NCBI GenBank assembly: GCA_016936495.1
Contig: JAFGXT010000390.1
Span: 1-34,722, forward strand
Direction: 5' to 3'
Source of the DNA: Victivallales bacterium
Lineage (GTDB): Bacteria > Verrucomicrobiota > Lentisphaeria > Victivallales > SZUA-371
Length of the DNA: 34,722 nucleotides
The notes under the pieces were generated by a model, which had not been told where the DNA came from, ran no database searches, and worked only from the letters and a program-made list of their open reading frames with translations. Shown one piece after another: positions 19,586-27,253 of this stretch; the first letter of the stretch is position 1; every line of letters starts with the position of its first letter. The translations under genes and the position numbers were made by a program.

Positions 19586-20605
19586 CTAAACCGTTATCTG
19601 TCTTGGCGGCGCGGTGGATTCGCGCACTATCAATTCCGTTGGGAAAATTTCTCTTGGAGGGTTCCATATTCCGGGGTTCTTAAGAAATTCATCAATACTC
19701 TTTGCCGCGGTGAATCCCATTTCTCTTATTGGTTGATTGATGGTAGTCAGTGAAGGATGAATGAATTTTACTTGTCGATAATTATCGAAGCCAATGATGG
19801 ACATGTCTTCCGGGATTTTCATACCGCAATCCCAGATTCCTTTTGTGGCGCCGATGGCAACGCTGTCATTTACAGTGATGATTGCAGTGATTTCCGGGAA
19901 TTTTCTTATCAGCTCCTGCACGGTGTCATAGCTACTTTGATAAATATCTTTATTGCAATCCACTTGAATTATCCAGTCCGGATTATAGTTCGGATTCAAG
20001 TTTTTCATTGAGTTTTCGAAAGCTTTCACTCTGTTTACGTGATTTATCGTAATATAGCTTGCGTCCATATAGCCGATATTTTTGTGACCCAGTTTCGCCA
20101 GGTACTCCACTGCGGTTTTTGTTCCCGAGTATGCGTCATGGTCAATAAAGCCGATGTTGTCTTTGTATATTGCCCCCATGAGAATTACCGGTAATTCAAG
20201 ACTGGCAAGTTCTTCTATTTCCGCACTGAATTCTTCCGGCAGTACTACGATCACTCCGGAACATTGCTGTTCCCGTATTTGCTGCAACAGGTTTCCGCCA
20301 TCTTTCTGTTTGAAGATCATACTGGCGCTTAGAGCATTTTTAGCACAGTAGTCATATACTCCGGAAAACATTTCTCCGATATACAACTCAATAAACGGAG
20401 TTCCTGAAATCAGAACAATTTTTTTTGCTCTTGGTCGGGCTGGGGTTGGAACAAAATTATATTTAGACATCAGGGCGCTGATTTTTTTCCGGGTTTCTTC
20501 ACTGACATTTGCCCGATTGTTTAGTGCCCGGGATACTGTTGCCTCGGACACTCCAGCTTCTATTGCAAGTTTTGCTATACTTATCTTTTTTGTTTTCCTG
20601 CCCAT
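19586..20605 (-). CDS. LacI-family transcriptional regulator
   Basis: A 339-residue sugar-responsive repressor. The N-terminal DNA-binding domain shows SIAKLAIEAGVSEATVSRAL (9-28) and hinge-helix region SEETRKKISALMSKYNFVP. The rest is the periplasmic-binding-protein-like effector domain with VLISGTPF, VILMGAIYKDNIGFIDHDAY, LGHKNIGYMDAS, ITVNDSVAIGATKG, SIIGFDNY and HPSLTTINQP. The effector sugar is not predictable. It is transcribed divergently from the giant secreted protein gene and is followed by the prepilin-like gene. The shared upstream region carries two identical TTACGTAA palindromes, each just downstream of a promoter, so it probably represses both itself and the target gene. Confidence 0.96.
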   Translation of the reverse strand: MGRKTKKISIAKLAIEAGVSEATVSRALNNRANVSEETRKKISALMSKYNFVPTPARPRAKKIVLISGTPFIELYIGEMFSGVYDYCAKNALSASMIFKQKDGGNLLQQIREQQCSGVIVVLPEEFSAEIEELASLELPVILMGAIYKDNIGFIDHDAYSGTKTAVEYLAKLGHKNIGYMDASYITINHVNRVKAFENSMKNLNPNYNPDWIIQVDCNKDIYQSSYDTVQELIRKFPEITAIITVNDSVAIGATKGIWDCGMKIPEDMSIIGFDNYRQVKFIHPSLTTINQPIREMGFTAAKSIDEFLKNPGIWNPPREIFPTELIVRESTAPPRQITV

Positions 20606-20640
20606 TGCAGTTATAGCCTCTTAAATCATTTATTTTTGTT

Positions 20641-20648
20641 TTACGTAA
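20641..20648 (-). promoter_or_regulatory. Candidate LacI-type operator O1 (lacI side)
   Basis: TTACGTAA is a perfect 8-bp palindrome with a central CG, as in many LacI-family operators. It starts 3 bases past the minus-strand -10 (20657-20652), so it covers the predicted lacI transcription start. The 13 bases TTACGTAATTAAA at 20641-20653 recur at 20720-20732. Confidence 0.65.
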
Positions 20649-20651
20649 TTA

Positions 20652-20680
20652 AATATAACTTCAGAAATATTTTTTGTCAA
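20652..20680 (-). promoter_or_regulatory. Promoter of lacI and the prepilin-like gene
   Basis: On the minus strand TTGACA (20680-20675), 17-bp spacer, TATATT (20657-20652). It ends 46 bp before the lacI ATG. The -35 lies 7 bp from the -35 of the divergent promoter at 20688-20716. Confidence 0.75.
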
Positions 20681-20687
20681 GCAGGTA

Positions 20688-20716
20688 TTGACAAATTATT
20701 ATTAACGACATATATT
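20688..20716 (+). promoter_or_regulatory. Promoter of the giant modular protein gene
   Basis: TTGACA (20688-20693), 17-bp spacer, TATATT (20711-20716). Both hexamers are the same as in the divergent lacI promoter. The predicted start is near 20723, giving a leader of about 140 bases before the ATG at 20864. Confidence 0.75.
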
Positions 20717-20719
20717 TAC

Positions 20720-20727
20720 TTACGTAA
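20720..20727 (+). promoter_or_regulatory. Candidate LacI-type operator O2 (target gene side)
   Basis: A second TTACGTAA palindrome, 3 bases past the -10 of the plus-strand promoter, covering the predicted transcription start. It lies 79 bp from O1. Bound repressor would block initiation, and two sites 79 bp apart could also be bridged by a tetramer. Confidence 0.65.
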
Positions 20728-20863
20728 TTAAAAAAAAATAATAATTTCAACAATGAGTTTCAAGTTTTATAACAAATATTGTGAACCGCATTTTTCAGGT
20801 AAAATCATTAAAAAATTAATAGTTTTCAGCATTTATAAAACAATAAAAAAGGAAAAAGCAAGT

Positions 20864-21919
20864 ATGATCAAGACGAAGTTGTTGTTTGCCGCGGCTTTAT
20901 TTTCTGTATTTGGAACCGAACTGTGCGCGGAAGAGAAAAATATGCTGCCTGGAGATGGTTTTGCTGTATCTAAAGACGAAAATATGCTTCCACGTGACTG
21001 GAAAAGGCAGGGAAAAAATCAGGATGCTGCCTATAAACTGAATGATGAACAGAATTCAGGGGAAAAACTTACGGTTTTGAGCGTAAATAATCCTTCAAAA
21101 GAAGCGAGTGCGATTTGCTCAATAAATATGAAGTTGCCATCTTCCTGTAAAGGTCTGTATTTTTCATTTATGGGAAAAGGTAAAGGAAATATTGAAGCAC
21201 GTATTCTTTCAAGTGACTGGAAAGGAGGGGGGCTAGGTAAATTTTTCCTGGATGATAACTGGCGGCGTTATTCGATGATTATTCCTGAATCAAAACTTGA
21301 GGGCAAAAAAAATATTTTCGCCATGTTTCATTTTCAGCAAGGGGATTTCTCTATAGCCAAGCCATTTCTTTGTAAACTCCCGCAGAAGTATATAAATAAG
21401 AAGGACGGCGGCGAATTGCTTGAGAATCCGGGATTCATTCTTGATGCTCCAGAGGAACTGTTCCCCACGGTCGGGTGGACTTATAATTATAACGATAAGG
21501 TTAGCGGTAAGTTTATTGCGGACAAGTCATTTGAAGGACAACAGCCGGTTCTTGAACTCAATAATCCGATTGAAGATAAGGCTATAACCATAAAAAGTTC
21601 GGATTTTGCGCTTGACAAAGCCGGGAAATATGTGGCGACGGTATGGATGAAAGCCGGAGAAAACGCAGAAGGAAAGAAATTCTCGATTACGATGCGGGCA
21701 ATCAGAAGTGATTGGAAGAAAAGTTTTGCCGGCAAGGCGGAATTATTGCAGAATGGATGGCTCAAATACGAAACGGTTTTTCATATTCCGCAAAACCAGC
21801 TTTCCAATTATTTTTTCAGAATAGACATTAAAGGAAATGGAAAATTTTATGTTGCAGACCCTTCTTTCAAGCATATGGAAAATGAAGACGGGCTAGAAAA
21901 AAAATTAGAAAAGAACTGA
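20864..21919 (+). CDS. Secreted protein with tandem carbohydrate-binding-like domains (5' part of a frame-broken giant gene)
   Basis: In the zero frame this is a 351-residue secreted protein. The start at 20864 gives MIKTKLLFAAALFSVFGTEL as signal peptide, with AAAGG about 10 bases upstream; a longer open frame to 20753 is not supported. Two similar beta domains follow, each about 150 residues. They share the pattern SDWK...GK...L..NW..Y....IP...L..F.F...G.F.(I/V)A.P(F/S)F and resemble CBM4/9-type galactose-binding folds, probably for sugar binding. The frame stops at 21917 right after an A8 tract (21897-21904). The following -1 frame continues without a start codon into a LamG-like domain. 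The gene is therefore probably the first part of a 2048-residue protein, joined by slippage, or split by a one-base loss or sequencing error. Confidence 0.85.
   Translation: MIKTKLLFAAALFSVFGTELCAEEKNMLPGDGFAVSKDENMLPRDWKRQGKNQDAAYKLNDEQNSGEKLTVLSVNNPSKEASAICSINMKLPSSCKGLYFSFMGKGKGNIEARILSSDWKGGGLGKFFLDDNWRRYSMIIPESKLEGKKNIFAMFHFQQGDFSIAKPFLCKLPQKYINKKDGGELLENPGFILDAPEELFPTVGWTYNYNDKVSGKFIADKSFEGQQPVLELNNPIEDKAITIKSSDFALDKAGKYVATVWMKAGENAEGKKFSITMRAIRSDWKKSFAGKAELLQNGWLKYETVFHIPQNQLSNYFFRIDIKGNGKFYVADPSFKHMENEDGLEKKLEKN
21898..21904 (+). other. A AAA AAA slippery heptamer at the frame junction
   Basis: In the zero frame the bases read gaA AAA AAA tta, the exact codon phase needed for -1 slippage. 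The zero-frame stop TGA follows 12 bases later at 21917-21919. A -1 move here gives EKK followed by IRKELKETAYLSF and joins the two open frames. No strong downstream hairpin or pseudoknot is visible, which weakens the ribosomal model; transcriptional slippage on A8 or a one-base sequence error is equally possible. Confidence 0.6.
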
Positions 21920-24900
21920 AAGAGACTGCATATTTAAGTTTCGATAACGATATATCTACGGATAAAGTATTAAGTCCTGAATCTTTTTTCAAGGTGAAAG
22001 AGGTTCCGGGATTCAAAGGGCATGGCGTCAGCATCGAGGATGGTGGCGGCTTGTCCTTTCACATAGACAAGGTGTTGGACAACAAAAGAGGCGCCATTTC
22101 TCTATGGATATGCACCGAAAAAGATCCCGTGCCTGTTTTTGCTCCTTGCGATATGATCGGATTCAGCATTACGGGTAAAAATGAACTTGACCGGAATGGT
22201 GGAATACTGAAAGGTCGTATAAACGGTCCCGGAATCTTATTCAGCTTTTCCAGTGCTTATGGCATTGAATCTCCTCAGGGATGCCGCGCTTCCAAGTTCT
22301 ATTTTGGTAATGAATGGCGACATTACATTTATTCCTGGGAGCAGGAATCTGGATTGAGAATTTATATTGACGGTCGCCTGTTTCTTGCTTCAAGTTCGGA
22401 TCAGATATTAAAAAACCTTTCCCGGGTAAAATTGAACACGCTCAACCTTTATACTGGTAACGGTAGCAATCCGGATGATTCAGCCTGTTTTGATGAGTTG
22501 CGTCTGTTTAATCGGGAACTGAGTGAGGATGAGGCGCTTGCTCTTTATGAACAATATGTGCCGGCGTATCCGGTATTGCTGGACTACGCGACCATTGCCG
22601 GAAGTAAAAAACCTTTTCGCGTTAAGATGCTCCTTAAGGCAAATTCAAATCCGGTGGACATGACGATTCTGGCGGAAAATACCGAAGGGAAAAAGCTGTT
22701 TGAGAAAACCTTGAGAGTCCCAGAAAATGGTAATTATGAAATCCCGTTTTATCCCGCGGATCCAGGAGTATATCGACTGGTATTTTTATCGGGCGAGAAG
22801 CGGATACGCACTTTTGAGGTTTGCGCGGTGCCTGCGGAAAGTATTACTGAAAAAATGCCCGTTTCCGTCAGCGGCAATCCCAGACTTCTACTTGTAGACG
22901 AGGTGGATTGCAGCAAAGACTATCCAGCTTCACGTTATCTTGATGACGGTGAAGTCGCGGTTGTGGATTCTGCCATAGGCAGATACCGTGAATCGACACG
23001 TGATACTTTTGAAGAAGCCAGGCACTATGGTTTTGTATATAATTTCACCATAAGAAATCCAGGCAAACCGCATTGGCTGGAAATCGAATATCCGGATGAC
23101 AAGCCGCGCGTGTTTTATGTGGTCGTAGATCAAAGACTTGATAACATGGGATGGGGTACGAATAAATTCTCCCATAGTTATTCTTTGGACACAATTGGTG
23201 TTGCCAACGGAATTAATAATCCTGTTACTGGTCGGATGTCGAGGAAAAAGTTGTTGTTCTGGCCGGATTCAAAAGATATTCTGGTCGGATGTTTTGGCTA
23301 TAATACATTTAAAGGCTGTGCGGGACCGGCAATGAAAAACATCCGTATTTATGAGAACGCGGAACCTTTGTCAAAGCTCGCGGTAAACCAGCCGGCAGGC
23401 ATGCCGCAACGCCTTGTCGGCAACTGGAATGAAGACCCGTATATGCCGCTGGGCTGCTGGTTCAATACGTATATGAACAATCAGGGACCTTCATTTGAAT
23501 TCATTGAGGAGAAAATGAGGCGTAGGATCAAATATATACGGTTTATGGGGCAGAGTCATACGGTTTTTCAGTTATTCGATTATAATGGAGACAATAATGG
23601 AGCATATGGCATGCTGCCAAAGCCGGCGCCACTGGCATATATGCCCGGCTGGGCTTGTCTTGCCGCCACGATGTTTGAGCGCGAGAATATCCCTTTTTAT
23701 ATTCAGTTCAATGACCGGGTAGGATTGCACCAGCTGATCGGGCTGGATAAATTATCCGTCGATGAGTTCGAAGCCTCGGCAAAAGGAATGGAGTCATTGG
23801 AATTCATGTCGGCGGATGGGACTTTGGATAAAAATCCCGGAAAACGTTCAAAAGACGCCACTTTGAATTTTCTGCATCCGCAGGTCAGGGAGGCACATCT
23901 CAGACGTATACGTTTTTACCGTGAACAATTTGATATTTATAATTCCTTTAAAGGAATTATGTACTACTACAGCCATATCCTTACTTTTAAAACTGAAAAA
24001 CTGGGGTATGGCGATTATACCATTTCTCTGTTTGAAAAAGAAAGCGGGATAAAGATTCCGGTTGACGACAAAGGAATGGGACGTTTTAATAAACGCTATA
24101 ACTGGTTAAAAAATAGTAATGTATGGGAAAAATGGATCAATTGGCGCTGTGAAAAGGTCAAAGATTTTCTACTGACTCTTGCCAAAGAATTGAACGGCGG
24201 TTCACATAAGAACCTGACCTTGAATATTCCGGTTCATACGGATTTCCTTATTTCCACATCATTCAAAGACAAACTTGATGATTATTCGGTGGAAATCAAT
24301 ATTCAGGAGTGTCTAAAACTGACAGGTATAGACCTTGTGTCTCTGAGAAATGAACCGTCATTGCGACTGGAAATAGTTGATCGGCCTAATTACGGATTGA
24401 CTCATATGAACAATATAAGCCGGAACTACGATTCTTTCCAGTATTCCGTCTCCTTTGCAGAACTTTTTGAGAATAACCGTCATCCTGGTATGCTGCTCAG
24501 TCGTCATGCAAATATGGAAATATACCGGACAAGTCCAGTTATAAAAAACTACTGGTGGCCGCGTGGTTATTGGGGACGCAACGGCGGTTTTCATTGTTTC
24601 AGTTCGGTTATGCCCGACAATAAATATCTGCCGCAGACTCTTGCCTGGGGACTGGCGATGGGCGATGTTCAACACGTTGATCACGGTTGGTGGGGGAATC
24701 CCGAAAACGGCGCTCATAGCGAATTTCAGAAATTCTATCAGGCATATCGTTCAATTCCGGCACTGCGTTTTGAGAAGGCGCCAAGTGTGAACGATCCGGT
24801 CATGGTGCGTCAGTACAATAGTCCGGCTAATTCGTCAGGATGGTTTTATCTGGTAAACATGCAATACTATAAAACAAAGGTAAAAATGACGCTTGATTCA

Positions 24901-27009
24901 GAATGTAAACTTACCGACACGGTGTTTAATCGTCCGTGGAAGCTGGACGGAAAAATACTGGAACTTGAACTTGATCCCTATCAGGTGATGAGCTTCAGAT
25001 CGGATAGACCGGTCAAAATCATAAGTACGGAACAGATTGTCCCGGAAAACATAGTCATGGGAATGACAAATCTTGTTAAAACGTTGAAGACTGGTGCGGA
25101 AATGACACCTTCTCCTCAGAATAAAAATCTGGCACGGACGGCGGAAGATATGTTGAAAAAGAAGAGCTATTCGGCTCTGTACTATCTTTCTCGAAGCTAT
25201 TCTGCTATGCGGCTGCTTCTTGACGCAAAAAATCCGTTGAGATTTACAGCCACGCTTGATCCTGATCGCGGGACATTGGATATCCAAGTCGAGAATAAAA
25301 CCTCAATGAATATCCATGCGGAAGTTTCGCTTAAATCTCTGCCGTCTGGAATAAATTGTCCTGATAAGTCTCTCACATCGGATTTGAAAGCAAAAGAAAA
25401 TATCTGTCTGAATTTTCCGCTTTCCAATTTTGATTGGAATAATGACGATTGCCGCAAAGAATTGAACTTCATCATTGAATATAAGGTAAATGATGGAAAT
25501 GCAAAAGTTTTGGAATATACCTTCCGTCCGCTAGTAAGCCGGGTTGTGGACACGCTCAATGTCGATGGCGACGTTTCAGATTGGGAGGGCTCCGTATGGT
25601 ATAAGCTTCATAAAAGTGATTTTCATATGAAATTTAAGGGTGATCTGGCATTGGGGCTGCCTCCGTTTGATGCGTCTTTTGCCTCAAGATGGAGTAAAAA
25701 AGGACTTTATCTGGCATTACGGGTAAATGAAAAAGATCTGATACCTGCTCCTGAAAAAAAAACGGCATGGCAATACGATTTCATTGAATTAATGTTCAAT
25801 CAGGACATCAATGCCGAAAACAATAAGGATGTATGTACCTTTTTTATAGCTAACCATGCTGGAGGAGCCTCACCAGTTATTACTCTGGCTCCGGCAAAAA
25901 ATCAAACCCCGGCAATGGCTTCCGAGTGCCTGATTGCCAGACAGCGGAAAGATAACACAACCACCTATGAATTATTTATCCCTGCAAAAGTCCTGAATAA
26001 GGTCAAGTTTGAAAAAGCCGCCAATTTCGGCATGGCGGTGAAACTCCATAATCGCGAACACAAAACCTCAAATCTTGATCTGTGGGATATCGCAATCAGC
26101 ACTTATGAATATCCTTGTGGACATCAGGAACGTTGGAACACAGTCCTGCTTTCCGGCAGTAACATCAACAAATTGAACTCTTGGCGGATGCTGTACGACC
26201 TGCCTATGGACAACCCCGCCCGTTTCGCATTGAACGAGATTGCTTCCCGGGCGTCATGGCGTGCGCTTAATATAACGCGGGGTAATTGGATTGGGACTGA
26301 CAAAGATCGCGACGAAGCCGCTAAAACTCTTAACCAACTGAAGAAACGTATAGAGTCCGGAATGGAATGGCCGCATAAAACTCCTCCGTCATATTGTATT
26401 CCTTACACATCCGTGTCTCCCGTTATCGATGGAAATATTACGGATGCCTGCTGGGATAAAGCGTTGACATTTAAAGGTTCATATTCTCTCAATTCTACTG
26501 TCAGGAATGATGACGGCAGTGTATGGAAAATCATGTGGGATCAGAAATTTATCTATGTGGGTACATCTTTTCCTGATAAAGATATTATTGCTTCGGAAAA
26601 ACCGGGGTATCCCTATCTGGGGGATTCACTGGAAATATTCCTGATGCCTTCGAAGCGTATGAAGAAGTATTGGGAGATCATAGTCGGATGTGATGAAAGT
26701 ATTTTTGAGGGATTTCACTGTAATAATAAATACGGTGGTTTTGTTTCAGATTCCAACGCTTCTGTAAATGGACTGCAATTTAAAAGCCTGCGCAAGAAAG
26801 ATGAATATGTTACTGAAGTTGCCATACCTTTTTCTGAATTACCCAATTATATGCTTGGGAATGCCCCCAAATCTGGGGAGAGTATTTACTTTGCCCTCGT
26901 TCGTACCGACAAGAAGAAGGGAGAAAATGTAAAATTCTACAGCTCTTTTCCTTTGCTTTATGGCGGACATAATGTTTATGGTCATGCAAAAGCAATATTA
27001 TACTTTTAA
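21904..27009 (+). CDS. Giant modular secreted protein, 3' part: LamG-like, unknown central region, two CBM9-like domains
   Basis: Read in the -1 frame relative to the 5' part, 1701 residues. No ATG or ribosome binding site precedes it; the first in-frame GTG (21994) cuts into a domain. Order by base position: LamG/concanavalin-like domain (about 21925-22560, WRHYIYSWEQESGLRIYIDGR and CFDELRLFNRELSEDEALALY); Ig-like strands (to 22850); a beta domain (about 22890-23400); an Asp/Trp/Tyr-rich central region that could be a TIM-barrel hydrolase (about 23400-25000, with KYIRFMG, IPFYIQFNDR, GIMYYYSH, DHGWWGNPENG); a beta linker; CBM9-like domain one (25540-26170, NVDGDVSDWEG); a helical linker; and CBM9-like domain two (26390-27006, VIDGNITDACWDKA, GDSLEIFLMP). 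No known glycosidase signature was identified. Likely polysaccharide binding or cleavage outside the cell, under the divergent LacI regulator. Confidence 0.85.
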   Translation: MRKELKETAYLSFDNDISTDKVLSPESFFKVKEVPGFKGHGVSIEDGGGLSFHIDKVLDNKRGAISLWICTEKDPVPVFAPCDMIGFSITGKNELDRNGGILKGRINGPGILFSFSSAYGIESPQGCRASKFYFGNEWRHYIYSWEQESGLRIYIDGRLFLASSSDQILKNLSRVKLNTLNLYTGNGSNPDDSACFDELRLFNRELSEDEALALYEQYVPAYPVLLDYATIAGSKKPFRVKMLLKANSNPVDMTILAENTEGKKLFEKTLRVPENGNYEIPFYPADPGVYRLVFLSGEKRIRTFEVCAVPAESITEKMPVSVSGNPRLLLVDEVDCSKDYPASRYLDDGEVAVVDSAIGRYRESTRDTFEEARHYGFVYNFTIRNPGKPHWLEIEYPDDKPRVFYVVVDQRLDNMGWGTNKFSHSYSLDTIGVANGINNPVTGRMSRKKLLFWPDSKDILVGCFGYNTFKGCAGPAMKNIRIYENAEPLSKLAVNQPAGMPQRLVGNWNEDPYMPLGCWFNTYMNNQGPSFEFIEEKMRRRIKYIRFMGQSHTVFQLFDYNGDNNGAYGMLPKPAPLAYMPGWACLAATMFERENIPFYIQFNDRVGLHQLIGLDKLSVDEFEASAKGMESLEFMSADGTLDKNPGKRSKDATLNFLHPQVREAHLRRIRFYREQFDIYNSFKGIMYYYSHILTFKTEKLGYGDYTISLFEKESGIKIPVDDKGMGRFNKRYNWLKNSNVWEKWINWRCEKVKDFLLTLAKELNGGSHKNLTLNIPVHTDFLISTSFKDKLDDYSVEINIQECLKLTGIDLVSLRNEPSLRLEIVDRPNYGLTHMNNISRNYDSFQYSVSFAELFENNRHPGMLLSRHANMEIYRTSPVIKNYWWPRGYWGRNGGFHCFSSVMPDNKYLPQTLAWGLAMGDVQHVDHGWWGNPENGAHSEFQKFYQAYRSIPALRFEKAPSVNDPVMVRQYNSPANSSGWFYLVNMQYYKTKVKMTLDSECKLTDTVFNRPWKLDGKILELELDPYQVMSFRSDRPVKIISTEQIVPENIVMGMTNLVKTLKTGAEMTPSPQNKNLARTAEDMLKKKSYSALYYLSRSYSAMRLLLDAKNPLRFTATLDPDRGTLDIQVENKTSMNIHAEVSLKSLPSGINCPDKSLTSDLKAKENICLNFPLSNFDWNNDDCRKELNFIIEYKVNDGNAKVLEYTFRPLVSRVVDTLNVDGDVSDWEGSVWYKLHKSDFHMKFKGDLALGLPPFDASFASRWSKKGLYLALRVNEKDLIPAPEKKTAWQYDFIELMFNQDINAENNKDVCTFFIANHAGGASPVITLAPAKNQTPAMASECLIARQRKDNTTTYELFIPAKVLNKVKFEKAANFGMAVKLHNREHKTSNLDLWDIAISTYEYPCGHQERWNTVLLSGSNINKLNSWRMLYDLPMDNPARFALNEIASRASWRALNITRGNWIGTDKDRDEAAKTLNQLKKRIESGMEWPHKTPPSYCIPYTSVSPVIDGNITDACWDKALTFKGSYSLNSTVRNDDGSVWKIMWDQKFIYVGTSFPDKDIIASEKPGYPYLGDSLEIFLMPSKRMKKYWEIIVGCDESIFEGFHCNNKYGGFVSDSNASVNGLQFKSLRKKDEYVTEVAIPFSELPNYMLGNAPKSGESIYFALVRTDKKKGENVKFYSSFPLLYGGHNVYGHAKAILYF

Positions 27010-27061: not shown

Positions 27062-27253
27062 AAAAAAACCATTGCCGAACAGATTTACTTTTTCCATTTA
27101 AATCGAGTGTCATCATCCATCATGGTCAAAGTTGATTTTGATCTGACCATGTCGATACTAGCACACAACATGTATCGATTACTGACGCAGGAATTAACTG
27201 AGTTTGAAGCGAATTCGGCGAAAACTCTTTTCAAATTGAAAAAACAGAAATAG
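27062..27253 (+). pseudogene. Transposase C-terminal remnant
   Basis: A frame open from 27062 to a TAG at 27251 encodes IAEQIYFFHLN, then VKVDFDLTMSILAHNMYRLL and a basic tail. This matches the conserved C-terminal end of DDE transposases of the type that end IA(E/D)xxxFFHLxxLSS...VDFDxxxxxxAxxLYR. Only about 64 residues remain and there is no start or catalytic domain, so it is a decayed insertion sequence. The exact IS family is not determined. It sits at the downstream edge of the lacI/giant-protein module and supports past mobile-element activity there. Confidence 0.75.

Follow-up and report, generated by a model that had tools for sequence, protein, structure and literature searches.

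The window analysed here is a single stretch of 34,722 nucleotides that makes up an entire contig (C237), one of 401 contigs of a draft genome with a completeness of 88.8%. On its forward strand, two long reading frames meet at a run of eight adenines (Table 1). The first, ORF1, opens with an ATG at 20864 and encodes 351 amino acids before its zero-frame stop, a TGA at 21917-21919. Within the run, the heptamer A AAA AAA (21898-21904) lies in the -1 slippery phase, with the zero-frame codons GAA AAA AAA TTA, 12 nt ahead of the ORF1 stop. At the tract, the coding bias moves out of the zero frame and into the -1 frame, and the joined product of ORF1 and ORF2 is 2048 amino acids long. Reading the tract as A9 yields the same product, with EKKIRKE at the junction, and one added A restores the frame. 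The preliminary description of this locus had given the start and stop of ORF1, the heptamer, its phase and distance from the stop, and a -1 frame running to 27009, all of which were reproduced from the sequence. The MAG contains a single assembled copy of the gene, and no second copy with another tract length was found in it. ORF2 also contains a second long tract, an A9 at 25754-25762 (EKKTAW), where the frame is intact and agrees with the alignment to a paralogue.

Table 1 Features of the split gene and its upstream region in the window
Feature	Position	Strand	Description	Basis
Divergent LacI-family regulator gene	19586-20605	-		LacI HTH, E 2.1e-14; Peripla_BP_3, E 1.6e-25
Intergenic region	20606-20863		Back-to-back sigma-70-like promoters and near-palindromic arms with TTACGTAA, shared by the LacI and enzyme genes	
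ORF1	20864-21919	+	Signal peptide and two tandem CBM_4_9-like, sugar-binding-like modules	Translation
A8 tract	21897-21904	+	Frame-change point	Sequence, coding switch, joined product aligned with C394 at the junction without a gap
ORF2	21904-27009	+	-1 frame, 1701 codons, startless; lectin-type LamG-like domain, core resembling a (beta/alpha)8 glycoside hydrolase, CBM9-like domain at the C-terminus	Laminin_G_3 and CBM9_1 profile matches; AlphaFold2 model and Foldseek matches of the core

The region upstream of ORF1 is shared with a divergently transcribed gene for a LacI-family regulator. Both strands carry TTGACA-17-TATATT with 11/12 matches, at 20688-20716 on the forward strand and at 20680-20652 on the reverse strand. 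An imperfect inverted repeat of 51 nt (20630-20680/20688-20738) holds the TTACGTAA boxes, and these near-palindromic arms may serve as an operator. The enzyme gene is thus probably under LacI control, with the neighbouring LacI-family gene as the local regulator. Directly 3' of ORF2, on the same strand, lies a 61-amino-acid relic of the C-terminus of an open reading frame (27062-27253), which is 89% identical to part of a 360-amino-acid open frame elsewhere (G000:C170:2788-2955). The relic had no Pfam match, and it looks like a transposase remnant.

The two modules encoded by ORF1 are duplicates of one another (compared directly, E 2e-8 at 27% identity). The second has a weak match to PF02018 CBM_4_9 (E 0.0065, failing the curated cutoff). 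In C394, a paralogue encoded by this draft genome, the N-terminal module is 43% identical to it. ORF2 matches the profiles Laminin_G_3 (E 3.5e-6) and CBM9_1 (E 1.1e-14). An AlphaFold2 model of the core (residues 300-1110; mean pLDDT 73, pTM 0.77) shows a (beta/alpha)8 barrel and, after it, a beta-sandwich. The top Foldseek matches of this core were TIM-barrel glycosidases of GH13 and GH36, with TM-scores low enough that the core is best described as glycosidase-like, with no GH family assignable. No GH family profile in Pfam or NCBIfam matched P0002, and the sole GH-type profile signal was a sub-threshold match to GHL10 in C394 (E 0.0056). Across nine relatives, eleven Asp/Glu positions do not vary. 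The product is presumably a polysaccharide-acting enzyme. A weak sequence match between the LamG-like region and the tetanus toxin lectin subdomain was set aside as a reflection of their common jelly-roll fold.

ORF2 begins as coding sequence before it offers any place to start. Its earliest start-like codon is a GTG at 21994 (residue 31) and its earliest ATG is at 22153 (residue 84); both fall well inside the LamG homology, which opens at AYLSFD, in line with the earlier observation that the coding character of the -1 frame begins upstream of the first GTG. No promoter, usable start or signal peptide of its own was found for ORF2. These features, together with the in-frame fusion of the two parts in relatives, make it exceedingly improbable that the locus holds two genuine adjacent genes, one for a free binding protein and one for a separate enzyme, even though both frames are long and have coding character.

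Comparison with relatives indicates what the gene looked like before the break. In C394, which is 55% identical, the signal peptide, one binding module, the LamG domain and the core are encoded in one frame. An orthologue in the Victivallales MAG SZUA-436, which is 51% identical, has the same arrangement in one frame of 1619 amino acids, and in a further locus (L153) LamG again shares its frame with a binding-like module at the N-terminus. The joined product of the window gene aligns to C394 without a gap at the junction, KHMENEDGLEKKIRKELKETAYLSFD against KRIAESAVVINKTRNPLKEVAYFSFD, and the A tract is absent at this point from both close relatives, C394 and SZUA-436. Single-frame relatives and a gap-free junction imply that the split is derived and that the net change was one base. 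The proposal in the preliminary description that both frames belong to a single gene broken at the A tract is thereby borne out, as it also is by the switch in coding at the tract. The comparison of orthologues had been set beforehand as a test of functional frameshifting, and it went against that idea; the result is not absolute, since both comparators are only 50-55% identical relatives and not same-species strains.

An alignment scan identified six named loci, from Lentisphaerota/Victivallales and neighbouring Verrucomicrobia-type MAGs, and a single-protein scan of genome contigs returned no close relatives. The origin of the named relatives makes it very likely that the host belongs to Lentisphaeria. 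Giant proteins that combine LamG with a TIM-barrel, glycosidase-like core form an unclassified family with at least five members here (the window gene, C394, C81, C8 and C253) and relatives across the class. A distant member from a different genome within the order (L199, G013:C15) is broken by a frameshift at about 2430-2460 on the reverse strand. No homopolymer of 6 or more was present at that break, which indicates that ordinary indel damage happens in this family.

Apart from the A8 site, the window gene shows no decay. Unique changes in the window copy and in C394 numbered 94 vs 91 with one outgroup and 87 vs 79 with another, so the window copy evolves no faster than its paralogue. At otherwise invariant sites the window copy deviates at 7/95, compared with 3/91 and 2/90 in its sisters, a small difference in raw counts. 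The 1701 codons of ORF2 without a stop limit neutral divergence to under about 1.5% if the frame has been unselected. With the rate, the open frame, the promoter and the divergent LacI gene all healthy, the break is either young, tolerated (through slippage) or an artefact.

The position of the tract points to it as the cause. By chance, an A8 run would fall within the 31-nt overlap with a probability of about 0.0025, and an A_AAA_AAA in the correct phase with one of about 0.005; the tract therefore most likely produced the break through a change in length. This argument fits mutation, a sequencing or assembly slip and programmed slippage equally well and selects none of them. The motif by itself is no signal, as it is common in intact genes: an unbiased 0.68-Mb sample of intact coding sequence from the same genome holds 98 correctly phased copies of A_AAA_AAA. 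In this sample A8 is slightly below expectation (37 vs 47). Runs of 9 or more adenines show about a threefold depletion in coding sequence against synonymous shuffles (9 seen vs 31 expected), and T runs are depleted likewise (1 seen vs 7 expected in the 0.68 Mb sample). Folding of positions 21905-22000 was no better than that of shuffled sequences (MFE z -0.03), in agreement with the earlier statement that no stimulatory structure is visible, and no Shine-Dalgarno-like stimulator was evident by eye.

The preliminary description had suggested that a functional -1 slip yields both a free binding protein and a full-length enzyme. Such slippage, whether transcriptional at A8 or ribosomal at A_AAA_AAA, would make the 2048-amino-acid enzyme as a minority product. 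The phased heptamer just ahead of the stop, the long and intact downstream frame, the low probability of a tract at the break by chance and the absence of rate acceleration in the window copy would all suit this explanation, and the depletion of A9 and longer runs suggests that long A runs are slippery. There are also precedents in fucA of Sulfolobus solfataricus (PMC8037382) and in slippage at A8-A9 in IS elements (PMC1088944). We nonetheless consider functional slippage unlikely, because the relatives found (C394 and SZUA-436) are unsplit, the site has neither a downstream structure nor an evident stimulator and the motif is frequent in intact genes. A more specific possibility, that A8 is a lineage-specific slippage switch by which a LacI-controlled mRNA gives mostly a free, secreted sugar-binding protein and, as the minor product, the 2048-amino-acid enzyme with those same binding modules, we hold to be quite unlikely.

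The need to consider an assembly error, along with transcriptional slippage, had been rightly raised, and it depends on how prone this assembly is to indels. Frame breaks were scanned in 1.19 Mb of the 4.5 Mb draft genome, using as the criterion a tract located in the overlap of the two frames, which recovers 45/51 simulated one-base losses at long tracts. This replaced an alternative criterion, the lack of a start codon near the stop, which had a low sensitivity (13/60 simulated deletions). Within the 1.19 Mb, which included 51 long coding tracts, no further gene was broken at a homopolymer at least 7 bases long, and the other junctions that were inspected proved to be ordinary ORFs that neighbour, overlap or run antisense to each other. 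The scan rules out a generally indel-rich assembly. Homopolymer errors therefore appear to be rare in this assembly, although a handful in 4.5 Mb is conceivable.

An error in the assembly or consensus, in which the true tract is in frame and the gene is intact, is a real possibility that falls clearly short of even. It would agree with a gene that is otherwise whole, complete with regulator and promoter, with single-frame relatives and with a draft as fragmented as this one. In a survey of frame transitions, homology-validated singleton breaks were expected to be mostly sequencing errors and otherwise indels (PMC3711429), and the break in the window fits this class, being validated by homology and having no conserved frameshift site in its homologues. 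Against an error, the absence of a second homopolymer break in the scan means that the per-tract error rate is low, and the pattern of contigs resembles a short-read assembly, in which miscalls of A8 would be uncommon. That the sampled population carries a genuine indel, be it a reversible length variant or not, comes close to an even chance. The weights that we give to an indel, an assembly error and functional slippage are judgements and were not computed.

Taken as a whole, the locus is very probably one gene whose frame was broken by a one-base change in the length of the A tract, with the break being recent or artefactual rather than the design of a gene with two products; the assembly error and the genuine indel are both forms of this explanation. 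The gene would encode a secreted, multi-module protein of glycoside-hydrolase-like type, in which a signal peptide precedes two sugar-binding-like modules, a LamG-like domain, the TIM-barrel core and, last, a CBM9-like domain, and a slip of one base in the A run would have broken the reading frame. As assembled, the gene would be translated only to the end of its sugar-binding modules and no enzyme part would be made, save for what a small amount of unprogrammed slippage at A8 might supply. A special form of the genuine indel is phase variation, in which a reversible change in tract length would turn the secreted enzyme on and off and the off state was assembled. Although wbeL (A8) and manA (A9) of Vibrio cholerae O1 switch in this way (PMC3441752), we think phase variation improbable at this locus, as the relatives do not have the tract and A8 is short for a contingency locus.

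As it stands, a one-gene locus broken at its A tract illustrates how large carbohydrate-degrading genes come to be split at A runs in draft genomes, and it draws attention to a family of giant glycosidase-like proteins, so far unclassified, in Lentisphaeria and relatives. If the tract were functional, this would be a rare case in which bacteria use slippage to express a polysaccharide-degrading enzyme, much as archaea do for fucA. The literature searched contained no report of frameshifting in an enzyme of this type from Lentisphaerota.

Among known systems, the tract recalls wbeL and manA of V. cholerae in that a one-base change in the length of an A8 or A9 tract breaks the frame, while the functions differ; the wbeL off allele retains residual function through nonstandard, tract-dependent decoding (PMC3441752). 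In poly-A pseudo-pseudogenes and IS genes, as here, one A added in the mRNA would restore the frame, but transcriptional slippage in those genes occurs mostly at A9, whereas the window tract is A8, a length judged productive in some organisms only (PMC1088944). In S. solfataricus fucA, programmed -1 frameshifting takes place at A-AAA-AAT, with reported rare codons, a putative stem-loop and a demonstrated full-length enzyme (PMC8037382). Both are two-frame genes of glycosidase type, and the A-AAA-AAT of fucA is close to the A-AAA-AAA seen here; the rare codons, putative stem-loop and full-length product of fucA have no counterpart seen in the window gene. In the chitinase gene PF1234/PF1233 of Pyrococcus furiosus, a one-base change was accompanied by no growth on chitin, and the indel was verified in the cultured strain (PMC3575233). 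There too a multi-module secreted polysaccharide hydrolase is halved by one base with the remainder intact, the downstream part has no signal peptide and a relative, in that case Thermococcus kodakarensis, has a single frame; for the chitinase, however, loss of function was tested and the indel verified, whereas the window gene comes from a draft assembly. As a precedent, the P. furiosus chitinase comes closest among modular hydrolases that are broken, and fucA among those that are programmed.
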